The notes beneath the pieces were generated by a model. The model worked only from the letters and a program-made list of their open reading frames with translations, searched no databases and was not told where the DNA came from. Positions 57,208 to 62,051 of a DNA stretch of 64,000 nt are shown here, in pieces. Source of the DNA: Psychrobacter sp. I-STPA10. Its GTDB lineage: Bacteria; Pseudomonadota; Gammaproteobacteria; Pseudomonadales; Moraxellaceae. The stretch's first letter is position 1, and each line of letters begins with the position of its first letter. Position numbers and translations under genes: made by a program. Location of the stretch: positions 124,001-188,000 of the forward strand of contig NZ_VFYU01000012.1 of assembly GCF_021012795.1 (NCBI RefSeq), written 5' to 3'.

Positions 57208-57744
57208 CTAACCTGACTTCTGAGATTTAATTTGCGCCAACTGCTCTTCAAGTTGTGCTTTTTCCGTCTGTTTGAGTTCAATTTGAGCATCAAGCTCTTT
57301 AGCTTGTTCAAGCAAGGCATTACGTTGTTGTGCTTTGTTTTTTGGTGCGCTTGATTTTTTAGCGGTAGTATTTTTAGGCTTAATATTTGCTTGTTTTTTA
57401 TCAAACGCTGATTGGCCCTGAACAATTGTGTTAGCAATAACATCAACCGAGGCGTTAAATGCTGGCTTGTAACTATTATCATAATCACCAGATAACACCT
57501 GCCGCTTACCGTTGATATCTATGCGAAAAATATCTAGATGAGCATCATCTCCCATCAATCGCACATATAATTTAACTTGCTGGCCATTTTCTAATACCAG
57601 GTTAACTGGTTTGACGCTAGCCCCAGATATACGCTTTACGCGCTCAGGCTCAACAATGGGAATAGATTGTTTGGTTGATTTAGCCAGTCGATTGACAAAA
57701 TCTTTGATGAGTGGTGTTTTTTTGGTAATGTCAGATAACTTCAT
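57208..57744 (-). CDS. Charged phage protein with C-terminal coiled coil
   Basis: 178 residues from the ATG that lies 9 bases after AGGG in a leader hairpin. The N-terminal globular part (about 35-105) includes VNLVLENGQQVKLYVRLMGDD and HLDIFRIDINGKRQVL, a beta-rich fold reminiscent of small phage anti-restriction/internal proteins of the Dar group, but only weakly. Residues about 120-178 are Lys/Gln-rich coiled coil. Preceded by the GGAACACCCC late box. Function unknown. Confidence 0.5.
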   Translation of the reverse strand: MKLSDITKKTPLIKDFVNRLAKSTKQSIPIVEPERVKRISGASVKPVNLVLENGQQVKLYVRLMGDDAHLDIFRIDINGKRQVLSGDYDNSYKPAFNASVDVIANTIVQGQSAFDKKQANIKPKNTTAKKSSAPKNKAQQRNALLEQAKELDAQIELKQTEKAQLEEQLAQIKSQKSG

Positions 57745-57817
57745 AAAAAATAACCCTAGCATATAGATGATAGGGTTATTTTGAGGGAAGTTAAGAGATA
57801 GTAAGTAGGGGTGTTCC
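57745..57817 (-). promoter_or_regulatory. Late leader B: GGAACACCCC box and SD-burying hairpin
   Basis: GGAACACCCC at 57808-57817 on the minus strand, then TACTTACTATC as in leader A, a shared CTTCCCTCAAAATAACCCTA stretch, and hairpin AACCCTA / TAGGGTT (57752-57777) just before the ATG. Confidence 0.65.
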
Positions 57818-58196: not shown

Positions 58197-59162
58197 TTAC
58201 GGTTGCTCTGCCACTTCAGTTTCGATTCGCCCCCAGTTAAACTCGACGGGTATAGTTAATTTATGTTGAGATGTTTTTTGCAGCGGCAGATTGCCATCGA
58301 CAGAGTCGAATTGTATTTGCCAAGATCCCATCGTTGTAATCAAGCTTACTTTACGTATACCATCGTCATAATTATGTTCTGCGTAACCTGCATTTAATTT
58401 TGCGACTCGTTTAAAACTATTAACAACATAATCACCAAATGATGTGCTGCTAAAACTTTTTGAAATATCGGGATTTTCATTAAATACTTTTAACTCATGA
58501 CTACTTGATCCCGAACGGAAATTAAGAGTTAAAACAAAAGATAATGATTTGCCAATTAAATTAGGATTAAAAGCATAGTAATATGTATACCTTTGTCCGA
58601 TATACATCAATCTAGCAGTTGTCTGATACGCTTTAACGCTACCCTGCCCATCACTGACATTAATCTGATTAATAATATCTGCGGTATCAAATCGCTGATA
58701 AATCTTGTAAAATACTTGTAACTGTTGTCCTGCTTTGATATTAAATGCTTGCACTTCGCCGTCGGGGTGCTTGACTAATGCTCTAGTAGCAAGGGTGTCG
58801 TCGGCTAGTGTTAAACCTACCTCAGCGATTGATTGCGCGCCCATATCTTCGAAGGTGTATAGATATTCAGCGTAGATTTCGTAATAACCCTCACTGTCTT
58901 CATATCTATCAACTTGATGGCTAAATAACTCTTTTGTTGTTGTTTTTGCAACAAATGCGTCTAACTGTGTTTGTGATTTTTCAGGCTCACTACTACCAGT
59001 TCCGACTGATAGAGCTGTAAACCAGTCTTGACCGTCGTTACCAAGTGCGTTGAGTCCATTGTCTAACACTAAATTTGAATGATAGCCAGTATCGCTGACT
59101 ATTTCGTTAGTGTTTGTATCACGCGCGATAAGTCGCACTTCGCCTTTCATTCCTATTTTCAT
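58197..59162 (-). CDS. Tail fibre or tail-collar protein
   Basis: 321 residues, beta-rich, no signal. The N-terminus (KGEVRLIARDTNTNEIVSDT.. NLVLDNGLNALG) and a DWFTALSVGTGSSEPEKSQTQLDAFV stretch resemble the N-terminal baseplate-attachment part of phage tail fibre/collar proteins. The start overlaps the end of the frameshift extension upstream (ATGA). The frame continues after the TAA into a fibre-like sequence, so the protein may be truncated. Confidence 0.6.
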   Translation of the reverse strand: MKIGMKGEVRLIARDTNTNEIVSDTGYHSNLVLDNGLNALGNDGQDWFTALSVGTGSSEPEKSQTQLDAFVAKTTTKELFSHQVDRYEDSEGYYEIYAEYLYTFEDMGAQSIAEVGLTLADDTLATRALVKHPDGEVQAFNIKAGQQLQVFYKIYQRFDTADIINQINVSDGQGSVKAYQTTARLMYIGQRYTYYYAFNPNLIGKSLSFVLTLNFRSGSSSHELKVFNENPDISKSFSSTSFGDYVVNSFKRVAKLNAGYAEHNYDDGIRKVSLITTMGSWQIQFDSVDGNLPLQKTSQHKLTIPVEFNWGRIETEVAEQP

Positions 59163-59416
59163 TGTGTTTTTTGCTCCATTTTGATGTCTAATATGCCTAT
59201 GCTTACTTTGTAATTATCTTGCTCAGCTGGGCTATATGGCATAGCTGTATCTAGTATTTTGATTGTTGATTGATACTGCTCTACTTCGGCAGGACTATAT
59301 ATCATGTCTACATCAAGCGTTTTTATCGCATATTCGGGCAGTCGAATTAGATCAATATCTAATGTTTTTACAGACGATTGATAACTGTCTTTTTGCTTCA
59401 GATTACGCTTAACTAC
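59159..59416 (-). CDS. -1 frame extension (85 codons) entered by programmed frameshift
   Basis: Open from the slippery site to a TGA that overlaps the fibre start by ATGA. This frame has a TAG two codons before the slip site and no start codon near its beginning, so ribosomes can enter it only at GGGAAAG. The peptide holds three to four imperfect repeats of about 20 residues (IKTLDVDMIYSPAEVEQYQS; IKILDTAMPYSPAEQDNYK). Fused to the upstream 92 residues it gives a 177-residue protein. Confidence 0.75.
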   Translation of the reverse strand, partial: VVKRNLKQKDSYQSSVKTLDIDLIRLPEYAIKTLDVDMIYSPAEVEQYQSTIKILDTAMPYSPAEQDNYKVSIGILDIKMEQKTQ

Positions 59417-59691
59417 TTTCCCGAGCTACCTACCCTCTGCACCCAGACTTCAGACACTCCTTGCTTTAATGTATCTTCAACTGTGTTGTAGCTATCGTTG
59501 CTAGGATCATGTCCTAGCAACGCCTGATAGTTATTGGCAGTCACTCTAAACGGTTTGTCCATACGACCACGCTTAAACTTACCGACGATGACAGCACTAT
59601 TAGATGGTGGCAGCGATGTAGATTCTGTTTTATCAATCACATCACCGCGCTGAATACCGACTGCTGCACCTAGTATCTTTGTCTCTATCAT
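59413..59691 (-). CDS. Short sheath-like N-terminal domain protein (frameshift donor)
   Basis: 92 residues. SNSAVIVGKFKRGRMDKPFRVTANNYQALLG.. VEDTLKQGVSEVWVQRV looks like the N-terminal domain of contractile tail sheath proteins, but there is no sheath core after it: the frame stops at TAG. Just before the stop lies the heptamer GGGAAAG (59416-59422) in the right phase (G GGA AAG TAG), identical to the lambda G/GT slippery site. Possible role: a sheath terminator or collar subunit made in short and long forms. Confidence 0.75.
   Translation of the reverse strand: MIETKILGAAVGIQRGDVIDKTESTSLPPSNSAVIVGKFKRGRMDKPFRVTANNYQALLGHDPSNDSYNTVEDTLKQGVSEVWVQRVGSSGK
59416..59422 (-). promoter_or_regulatory. 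Slippery heptamer GGGAAAG for -1 frameshifting
   Basis: X-XXY-YYZ site read as G GGA AAG in the zero frame, immediately followed by TAG. Slipping back one base continues as GTA GTT AAG in the long open -1 frame. Confidence 0.75.
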
Positions 59692-59700
59692 GAACTACCC

Positions 59701-60624
59701 TTATTTGATTCCGATGGATCTAGAATGACGCTTTAAGCTTGCATTTGTTAAACCTTTGGCTTGTGCATCGGTTATGTTATAAATATTCATTTTTAGACCT
59801 TTAGAAAACGATCTCATCTGTTTACGAATAGCAGCGGGTGCGTGCGCTTTCTTTTTTGCTTTGCGCAGGGCAGCTTTTTGAGCAGAAGATAATTTAATTT
59901 CTCCAGAAATTCTCTTATTAACAACAACCTTTTTACCATTACGAATGGCTTTAACAGCCTTATAAACAACAGTTTTTCCATTTACTTTTTTAGTCGTTTT
60001 CTTACCTGCCCTGAGTTTCTTTTTCTTAGATTTTGTACTATCAAACTGCACTTCACTTTCTAACGCATCTTGTTCTAAGCTGTCATAAGTAGCATCTTCC
60101 TCCATACCATACGCAAATGCTGCTACAAACTCATCAAAATCATTCCCATCATCGGGCATATTTTCGATAATAATTTCACTGGCAGTCTCAATAGCAGCAT
60201 CTGCAATATCAATATCGTCATCAAAAATATCATCAATAACACCATCATTAACACCCATTGTGCTAAGTGCATCTGATATATGTGCTGCTAACACTGCTTT
60301 GACTGTGCTATCAATACCATCATTGTCATCGTCATCGTCGAAAACATCTAGCATGAACAGGTCTAATATTTCGCTTGGTAATAGATCTTCTTCATCTGCA
60401 CCATCTGATTCAACAATAATTGCAGCTAACATAAAAACAATTTGTAAAGCTGCCAATCGCATCTGAGCATTGGCATGGATAGCCATACGCTCGCTGATCG
60501 GGTCAAATTCAATTTTTTCTGCTGCTTGAGCTGCACTCATTGCATCAAATTGAGCTTGTTGTGTACGTGTTTGAGCATTGGCTTGTATGCGTCGAGCAAC
60601 GGGTGAATTATTAAACATGGACAT
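59701..60624 (-). CDS. Bipolar acidic/basic phage protein, possible internal or scaffold protein
   Basis: 307 residues. The first 210 are strongly acidic with Asp runs (FDDDDDNDGID, DDIFDDDIDIADAA), while about 205-307 are very Lys/Arg-rich (KSKKKKLRAGKKTTKK, ALRKAKKKAHAPAA). Such a split suits a DNA-contacting packaged protein, a scaffold, or a protein cleaved between its halves. AGGAAG precedes the ATG. It sits between sheath and the frameshift gene. Not recognised by family. Confidence 0.6.
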   Translation of the reverse strand: MSMFNNSPVARRIQANAQTRTQQAQFDAMSAAQAAEKIEFDPISERMAIHANAQMRLAALQIVFMLAAIIVESDGADEEDLLPSEILDLFMLDVFDDDDDNDGIDSTVKAVLAAHISDALSTMGVNDGVIDDIFDDDIDIADAAIETASEIIIENMPDDGNDFDEFVAAFAYGMEEDATYDSLEQDALESEVQFDSTKSKKKKLRAGKKTTKKVNGKTVVYKAVKAIRNGKKVVVNKRISGEIKLSSAQKAALRKAKKKAHAPAAIRKQMRSFSKGLKMNIYNITDAQAKGLTNASLKRHSRSIGIK

Positions 60625-60677: not shown

Positions 60678-62051
60678 CTACTTCGTTACGGTGGTTTCAA
60701 AGAATACTTGACGCGCACAACCCTCTGGACGTCGTGCCAGCTTCACATCAGCTTTTTCAAATGGATTATCAGCGCGTGGTGTAATAATTAGAGAGTAATA
60801 GCGACCACCCAAATCTGTTGCAGGCATTAAAAGACCTGCAGCAACACAGGCATCTAAAAAGCGATTACATTCTGTCGTTGCATCTTTAACAAAACTACTC
60901 ATACCCTTCAACAAATGCTTTTTGACAATACCTACAATAGTATTGTCTGTAAAAGTGGTGATTTCTGCTGAATTAATCAGACGCAGCGCACTGGTCTTGC
61001 TATCATATTGGGTTAAAGCATCTCCATACACCCAACGACTACCAGCATCAAAACGCTCATTCATAACCACATTAATACCTGCTTTAGCTAACGCATTTTG
61101 TGCCTCTTCATCTAAATTAACCTCCGGAAGTCGTTCAATATCACGAAAACCCACAGGAAAATCATATCCTGCAATTGGTCGATTCAGAGGAGGAATACCT
61201 GAGTTATTAGTTTGAGAATTACGTAGTAGTAATTGTCCTAAATAATCACCTGTGCAGGGACGCCATTTTTTACGTGCCAGCACAGTCGTGGCATTGCTAG
61301 GACGGGATTTATTGGGATTCCAAAACAGCCAGACACGATGATCTTGTACGCTAATTGATTCTGCTAATGCCGTTGCTTGTGTCCAGTCTGTTAGATTGCC
61401 GATATCAATTAACAGATGGATATTTAGTTTATCCATCACTTCGACCATCGCCTCTATCATTGGTAGATTACCCACCTCATTGCACACGATATAGCGTGGA
61501 CGTTCTGCCATATCTAACAGTGAGCGTTTAGCAACTATTGGCTCTACATCTTCAACTTCGGTAGCTGGCACAGCAAGCACTACTTCTTTTTTACGATATG
61601 CACCCAAAACATTAAGGGCTTTAGCTGTATTTATTGCAGTTTTAATGGCTTCAGCATTGGTAGCACTGTATTTGGTTTCAACCGTTTCAAAAAAGTCATT
61701 TTCACCGTCTAAAGCACCTGTAAAATCAAGCTTACGTGTGATATATCCAAAATCATTGGGGTAATTTTGTTCTAATGCTTCAATGCCACCTTCAGTATAA
61801 AGCCGACCTTGCAAGTGAGTGATAACGCTATCGTCAACTTTGTCGGCGAAAATAATGCTAAATACAAGATTATTCAGTGGATCATCACTTGGAGTCGGTG
61901 ATTTATCATCAGTCACACTGACTTTAGCAACGACATTTTCGTCAAAGCCATATTGCGTGTTCATGATGATATTTGCTAATGCACTATTGTTTGGCTCACT
62001 TGTTAAAGTGATGCCATCTGCATTGATATTTATCGAGAGTTTTGTAGACAT
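60678..62051 (-). CDS. Contractile tail sheath protein
   Basis: 457 residues from the ATG at 62049-62051; a longer reading from 62126 would translate the late box and leader. The sheath core is seen in EAIKTAINTAKALNVLGAYRKKEVVLAVPA, VWLFWNPNKSRPSNATTVLARKKWRPC, NRPIAGYDFPVGFRDIERLPEVNLDEEAQNALAKAGINVVMN and the C-terminal arm (RRPEGCARQVFFETTVTK). It lacks the N-terminal AVIVG-type domain, which instead occurs in the separate short gene at 59413-59691. Powers tail contraction. Confidence 0.75.
   Translation of the reverse strand: MSTKLSININADGITLTSEPNNSALANIIMNTQYGFDENVVAKVSVTDDKSPTPSDDPLNNLVFSIIFADKVDDSVITHLQGRLYTEGGIEALEQNYPNDFGYITRKLDFTGALDGENDFFETVETKYSATNAEAIKTAINTAKALNVLGAYRKKEVVLAVPATEVEDVEPIVAKRSLLDMAERPRYIVCNEVGNLPMIEAMVEVMDKLNIHLLIDIGNLTDWTQATALAESISVQDHRVWLFWNPNKSRPSNATTVLARKKWRPCTGDYLGQLLLRNSQTNNSGIPPLNRPIAGYDFPVGFRDIERLPEVNLDEEAQNALAKAGINVVMNERFDAGSRWVYGDALTQYDSKTSALRLINSAEITTFTDNTIVGIVKKHLLKGMSSFVKDATTECNRFLDACVAAGLLMPATDLGGRYYSLIITPRADNPFEKADVKLARRPEGCARQVFFETTVTK

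Follow-up and report, generated by a model that had tools for sequence, protein, structure and literature searches.

A predicted programmed -1 frameshift that would extend a detached sheath N-domain in a Psychrobacter genome

Introduction

In the lambda G/GT system, some ribosomes move to the -1 frame close to where a tail gene ends at its 3' side, which gives a major short product and a minor extended one, in a ratio that a review puts at 30:1, and both products are described there as assembly chaperones that are absent from the virion (PMC5009743). Frameshifting also extends virion proteins, so that some copies of a structural protein carry an additional C-terminal domain. Such frameshift-made domains are reported for the SPP1 gp17.1 pair (PMC8718954), for MTP-TpeX in the lactococcal 936 phages (PMC6669499), and for the T3 coat and Listeria phages (PMC5009743). 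The known examples are tube or coat proteins, and their extensions are either Ig/FN3-like or carbohydrate-binding. According to one reported view, it is a matter of chance whether a domain lands in frame or not, and frameshifting is selected afterwards (PMC5009743).

Contractile sheaths are described as having a conserved core to which both the N- and the C-terminal part contribute; other domains are added to this core, perhaps for stability or adsorption (Evseev et al., 2022; PMC9230969). A sheath made of two proteins is reported for Pseudomonas phage PaBG, where both are full size (about 58 kDa) and derive from a duplication (PMC7412058). Our literature search, in which coverage of subscription journals was mostly lacking, found, among the papers listed, neither a frameshift in a sheath component nor a sheath fold divided in the fashion described below. 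Of three further papers, one deals with a frameshift in a tail-assembly chaperone gene (PMC12846349), and two with subjects other than a divided or frameshifted sheath (PMC11948020; PMC6357053).

Here we analyze a stretch of 64,000 nucleotides from Psychrobacter sp. I-STPA10 (contig NZ_VFYU01000012.1, positions 124,001 to 188,000), called the window from here on, in which a gene for a 92-residue protein ends on the heptamer GGGAAAG. At the codon level the predicted shift would work like lambda G/GT, but its donor, a sheath-fold domain, stands outside that chaperone family. The locus is best explained as a variant of the already established class of frameshift-extended virion proteins: as in these, some copies of a structural protein are predicted to carry an added C-terminal domain. 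What appears to be new is the sheath donor. It differs from the known cases in being a detached N-domain with a short repeat tail, and other phages of its family use paralogous copies. Unlike the two full-size proteins of PaBG, the two genes of the window divide a single fold.

The slip site and its reading frames

The last codons of the 92-codon gene are TCG GGA AAG TAG, which places an X_XXY_YYZ heptamer in the slip phase, G_GGA_AAG (Table 1). A preliminary description of this DNA had noted the in-phase heptamer, the TAG after it, 85 open codons in the -1 frame, and a TGA overlapping the next ATG, and each of these was confirmed. The 0-frame stops directly after the heptamer, and the -1 frame is open and coding. 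A single codon (CTC) separates the heptamer from an upstream TAG in the -1 frame. With this TAG one codon before the heptamer and the 0-frame TAG after it, just three codons permit a productive shift, as had been estimated. It had also been stated that there is no start codon near the beginning of the -1 frame, and indeed the earliest possible one is an ATG located 111 nt inside the extension. Stop-codon readthrough was rejected as a way into the extension, as a second 0-frame stop comes four codons past the TAG.

Table 1. Coordinates of the predicted frameshift locus and its neighbours, as positions in the window
Feature	Position	Strand	Evidence or remark
Next gene, tail-fibre type (phrog_4176)	58197..59162	-	
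TGA ending the -1 extension	59161-59159	-	overlaps ATG of next gene at 59162
Four repeat units, type YxxxVKxLDVxM, in the -1 extension	59162..59383	-	
Predicted -1 frame extension, 85 codons	59162..59416	-	frame, coding score and shuffles
0-frame stop TAG	59415-59413	-	
0-frame gene, 92-aa sheath N-domain protein	59413..59691	-	ORF; phrog_14345 and phrog_1036 matches
Slip heptamer GGGAAAG, read G_GGA_AAG, abutting the 0-frame TAG	59416..59422	-	
Upstream TAG closing the -1 frame	59426..59428	-	
GAGG, weakly Shine-Dalgarno-like	59434..59437	-	11 nt 5' of heptamer
307-aa gene (phrog_1053, a family with no assigned function), between sheath core and N-domain gene	59701..60624	-	
Sheath core gene, 457 aa from ATG at 62051, without N-domain	60678..62051	-	phrog_1036, 3.2e-70

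In E. coli, a lone tRNA-Lys(UUU) makes AAG slippery. The host of the window also reads AAG with a lone tRNA-Lys, whose anticodon is UUU (TTT), among 46 tRNA places that were all typed with ARAGORN. GGGAAAG is the slip site of lambda G/GT itself. In E. coli, G_GGA_AAG is named as highly shift-prone (PMC5009743).

Possible stimulatory elements were compared with those of four relatives carrying the same heptamer (L015, L049, L003 and L100, presented below). Over 80 nt downstream, RNA structure is not unusual in the window (z -0.21), in L015 (-0.53), in L003 (-0.55) or in L100 (0.53), and the shift rate may therefore be low. In L049, a GCCCCC/GGGGGC hairpin of -14.4 kcal/mol lies 5 nt 3' of the heptamer, and the z value is -2.58 over 80 nt. 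Upstream, the GAGG of the window is a possible stimulator, in bases that are also constrained by the coding sequence. A GGAG is present 12, 12, and 9 nt before the heptamer in L015, L003, and L100, respectively, and L049 has GGTG only.

The extension as coding DNA

In the -1 frame, the window extension scores 0.219 bits per codon and is coding in that frame only, where true frames give 0.316 +/- 0.097 and the -1 frame of coding DNA gives -0.246 +/- 0.131 (423 pieces). None of 2000 dinucleotide shuffles of the downstream DNA kept 83 codons open. A -1 run of at least 84 codons past the stop does occur in 7 of the 44 window ORFs of at least 150 aa, and none of these seven is without a nearby start codon.

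The heptamer itself is rare. Across 1433 mechanically defined ORFs of the collected loci (301,151 codons), GGGAAAG is found in phase nine times, and at most 13 nt before the stop in three ORFs, all three being copies of the N-domain family with the window's included. Gly-Lys pairs are spelled xxG GGA AAG in 6 of 928 cases (718 ORFs of at least 150 aa), and two of the six belong to L003 and L100. When 22 listed heptamers were searched near the stops of 1343 distinct ORFs of at least 85 aa, there were 42 matches; seven of them have a -1 run of at least 40 codons, and three of these seven are the GGGAAAG cases. The arrangement of heptamer, stop and open -1 frame is real and not due to chance.

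The donor and the sheath core

The 92-aa donor matches four PHROGs families in all, namely the tail sheath family phrog_1036 (1.9e-08, profile positions 7-93 of 531) and three families of no assigned function carrying the same N-domain, with a value of 3.7e-30 for phrog_14345. Families that share this N-domain (phrog_24956, phrog_14345, and phrog_5283) are single-frame profiles of 279 to 516 positions with no PHROGs function, and phrog_24956 also includes the L015 extension. The AlphaFold2 model of the donor (pLDDT 75.0, pTM 0.57) resembles the N-terminus of a Streptomyces contractile injection system sheath (Z 7.6, 69 residues, 5.6 A), T4 gp18 (Z 6.3, 65 residues, 2.7 A), and the P1 sheath (Z 5.9, 64 residues, 5.7 A). 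These scores are middling, yet the best 45 rows are all contractile tails or injection systems, judging by their titles. Foldseek found nothing at E <= 0.001 for the N-domain model among solved structures, and the best rows of that list, down to rank 29, are all contractile-tail structures. When the N-domain profile was compared with the sequences of solved structures, the sole match up to E 1 was P1 Gp22, a weak one (E 0.099). Homology and modeling thus identify the 92-aa protein as the N-terminal part of the contractile-sheath fold. PHROGs matches and model agree here with the preliminary description, in which the donor was a sheath N-domain and no tail-assembly chaperone. By homology to the sheath, the donor is predicted to be a virion structural module.

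The rest of the fold is found in a nearby gene. The sheath core of the window aligns to positions 200-531 of phrog_1036, and its L049 homologue spans positions 116-531; a phmmer search of the core against solved structures gave 0 matches. Since the core of the window is devoid of the N-part and the 92-aa protein covers positions 7-93, one sheath fold is divided between two genes. N-domain and core are both encoded in the window, although not as a single polypeptide. Sheath proteins such as those of phrog_1036, P1 Gp22, and T4 gp18 come from one gene; here, two genes match different parts of the one profile, and the N-domain exists as several paralogues. In six loci (L093-L098), N-domain and core are in one chain. 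N-domain copies are present in 9 of 105 Psychrobacter genomes, and the core is present in the same nine.

The N-domain family and the recurrence of the heptamer

The family set was limited to distinct N-domain copies whose 3' end is complete and comprises 137 of them, merged only if their first 210 nt were identical; many are kin to one another, and the set includes six whole sheath proteins. Forty copies are short, with at most 100 codons when counted from the first residue in the alignment, and two or more of the forty are partial at the 5' side. The remaining copies continue in frame, many of them with long and varied extensions. Two or three copies, cut ones among them, are present in seven of the nine Psychrobacter genomes, and the window's genome has one. 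In the nearest relatives of the window copy, L150 (= L036) and L149 (= L037), a bare gene of 92 or 93 aa has an extended copy directly after it. The idea of a bare copy in every phage was refuted by genomes with short copies only and by others with long copies only. In the wider order, the N-domain was found in 2 of 390 genomes drawn, both already in the set, and in the Moraxella-type genus it was found in 2 of 6. A scan of viral_contigs with the pattern GTAGGTANNNCGGGAAAGT returned three stretches, of which L024, on the contig of L003, is a true relative, and L027 and L028 are unrelated.

Within nt 240-320, GGGAAAG occurs in five of the 137 copies, each time in the slip phase, and most copies are without it. 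Besides the window, the carriers are L015 (P. aquimaris DSM 16329, also L136), L049 (identical in sequence to Moraxella atlantae L138), L003, and L100. In the window, L015, and L049, the 0-frame reaches a stop no more than one codon after the heptamer, and the open -1 stretch measures 85, 177, and 146 codons, respectively. In L049, a GTG at the shift point and another upstream in the -1 frame mean that the extension could start by itself. In L003 (2734-3597) and L100 (reverse strand, from 366), the long form is the 0-frame, so that it needs no heptamer, and a slip would end 4 or 1 residues further on, giving a bare-size form of 96 or 95 aa. These two copies are the mirror image of the window arrangement. 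The site is kept in relatives, in phase in all five copies and with a -1 extension in three. The comparison also supports the initial reading of a lambda-type -1 slip site with two predicted forms, of 92 and 177 aa.

On a tree of 71 rows and 92 columns, the five site-bearing copies need four state changes, three of which are forced by well-supported branches. This pattern could reflect either several gains or one gain plus losses. The five sites are few and partly kin, L015 and L003 being sisters, and the site label is not clearly clustered on the tree, where 54 of 500 shuffles were equally low.

Other short copies were considered and set aside. Five of these with long -1 runs (L036, L052, L064, L067, and L075) have an ATG of their own at or soon after the stop, and in L036 this ATG, 77 nt further along, opens the next N-domain copy. 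In L038/L040, where GGG AAA TAG is followed by a 40-codon -1 run, the bases make no in-phase X_XXY_YYZ heptamer.

Two copies of the family look incomplete. The second P. aquimaris copy (L015:2390-2764) stops after 125 residues near the contig end, and its own end resembles the beginning of an Ig-rich extension; either decay or an assembly edge is possible. A broken copy with an internal TAA (G100:C1:1606126-1606314, L111) lies beside an intact extended one.

The extensions

The extension of the window is built from four units that start with Y at residues 11, 28, 47, and 68 (0-based), with a spacing of 17-21. A motif of 12 columns was made from 24 units, picked by eye, of two in-frame 417-aa paralogues. 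This motif finds the window extension, whose score is reached by none of 20000 shuffles. In a scan of 4662 ORFs, the extension is ninth at 45.4, and the next ORF scores 16.7; the eight above it (71.8-75.0) belong to the 417-aa type and are closely related to the proteins from which the motif was made. Three of the window units score 11.8-14.9, and the fourth, which is two residues short, scores -5.6. The repeat-built nature of the extension, first seen by the preliminary description, is thus matched in other members of the family. By BLAST, the window extension compares with the 417-aa paralogues at E 1.9, and against the collected ORFs nothing is better than E 0.27 besides the extension itself. 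A profile of its own four repeats gave no significant outside match, and a Pfam search gave no match. The window extension is without a close homologue in the collected set and, on these sequence comparisons, is tied to the 417-aa paralogues at the motif level only.

The 177-aa extension of L015 aligns over 165-168 residues with the C-terminal portions of four N-domain proteins that are extended in frame (L070, L080, L081, and L048), at 36-45% identity, and it matches phrog_24956 at 5e-49. Its model (L015:1776-2306) is a confident beta domain (pLDDT 80.8, pTM 0.81). The nearest solved structures are two TerD-like chains, 2qng, a protein of unknown function (Z 9.5), and the TerD homologue 2qz7 (Z 9.2, 131 residues, 3.2 A); Foldseek gave no match at E <= 0.001 among solved structures. 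Among viral models, the nearest are segments of large phage proteins (best E 9e-17). For the 146-aa extension of L049, nothing better than E 0.11 was found in the collected set, and nothing in PHROGs up to E 0.1. Taken as sequences, the extensions belong with the N-domain. One further copy, of 821 aa (L002:1461-3923), has PKD- and Ig-like Pfam scores over the cut-offs and is a candidate sheath decoration.

A proposed model: a sheath domain extended by frameshifting

We think it probable that a programmed -1 frameshift yields the predicted 92- and 177-aa forms and that the long one decorates the tail; our confidence in the frameshift by itself is higher than in this explanation as a whole. The contractile sheath is split in two genes, and the core and the small N-domain would have to join in trans. 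The majority of ribosomes would stop at the TAG to give the bare 92-aa form. A minority, which the lambda example suggests may be a few per cent, would slip one base back on G_GGA_AAG, bypass the TAG, and add 85 codons, resulting in a 177-aa form with a four-repeat tail. Both forms would then be expected in virions. The tail would leave the N-domain approximately where other sheath proteins insert outer domains, and because the extension is at this end of the N-part it should face outward, so that some of the subunits would probably carry the repeats on the outer side of the sheath. In near relatives, the bare and extended forms would come from adjacent gene copies, and here one gene would supply both. 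The varied extensions of the family suggest surface decoration rather than collar or sheath-end assembly, a role proposed earlier that gained no particular support.

A broader reading, to which we give slightly less than even chances, is that this type of sheath consists of a core plus an interchangeable N-domain cassette with many outward tails. The decorated share would be set by gene copies or, repeatedly, by a stop-placed G_GGA_AAG -1 frameshift. The chance-landing view mentioned above (PMC5009743) fits the mixture of frames in the N-domain family.

Several other explanations can be weighed against the frameshift. A one-base indel or a sequencing error could have broken a continuous gene, the GGGAAAG being incidental. 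Relatives with this architecture in a single frame do exist, some with the same kind of extension, and GGGAAAG is retained in L003 and L100, where the 0-frame gives the long form. The preliminary description had held that homologues with both halves in one frame would mean a mutation or an error. Such relatives were indeed found, either for the P. aquimaris extension or for the repeat motif of the window, but the conclusion does not follow, since the identical heptamer, in the same phase, with an immediate stop and a long -1 frame, is shared by three different phages, and L136 is, according to its record title, a high-coverage isolate assembly. The extension is also intact and coding, its stop overlaps the next start, and the near-stop heptamers counted above are all in the N-domain family. 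A broken gene is thus unlikely. GGGAAAG might instead be a recombination seam for swapped extensions, whose frame would be accidental and which in the window would go untranslated. The extensions of the window, L015, and L049 are wholly different while the junction is common to all, and the landing of domains in or out of frame by chance has been proposed (PMC5009743). Swapping and frameshifting can coexist, however, and a seam alone leaves unexplained both the slip phase in five sites out of five and the open, coding extension. A search covering serine recombinases (PF00239) found none in the host genome, which also led us to reject inversion by such an enzyme. A seam without frameshifting thus appears quite unlikely.

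Translation of the extension as a small gene of its own, through re-initiation past the TAG or from a start inside it, is very improbable. The adjacent frames and the ATG 111 nt in would allow a 48-aa product, and L049 offers GTG codons both upstream of the junction and on it. But the window is without a start codon near the beginning of the frame, the first start in L015 is 47 nt past the stop, and the first 37 codons of the window extension, coding-like and containing the first repeats, would stay untranslated. Finally, heptamer and phase match reported lambda-type sites (PMC5009743), as they would in a tail-assembly chaperone pair of the G/GT type. This we find hardly credible, as the PHROGs families of the donor are the tail sheath and three N-domain families of no assigned function, and its model resembles sheath N-termini.

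If the programmed frameshift is true, the family offers natural replicates, with one gene plus a slip site in some phages and two genes without one in others, which address why phages set protein ratios by frameshifting. It would also hint at what three unnamed PHROGs families do, and provide a way to ask if the tails carried by sheath subunits influence adsorption, stability, or contraction.

Additional observations

Some genes found near the N-domain genes are of separate interest. In the window, a 184-aa gene (57208-57762) has an Hdf-like antirestriction match (phrog_1620, 2.6e-21), and its weak DarA_N score is under the Pfam cut-off. On an Acinetobacter oleivorans plasmid (L023:7238-8642), the N-domain gene adjoins a gene annotated as a recombinase family protein. 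Both an Acinetobacter phage (L021:10253-10769) and the Acinetobacter plasmid (L023:10488-10998) have annotated toxin-antitoxin pairs some 2 kb away from the N-domain gene.
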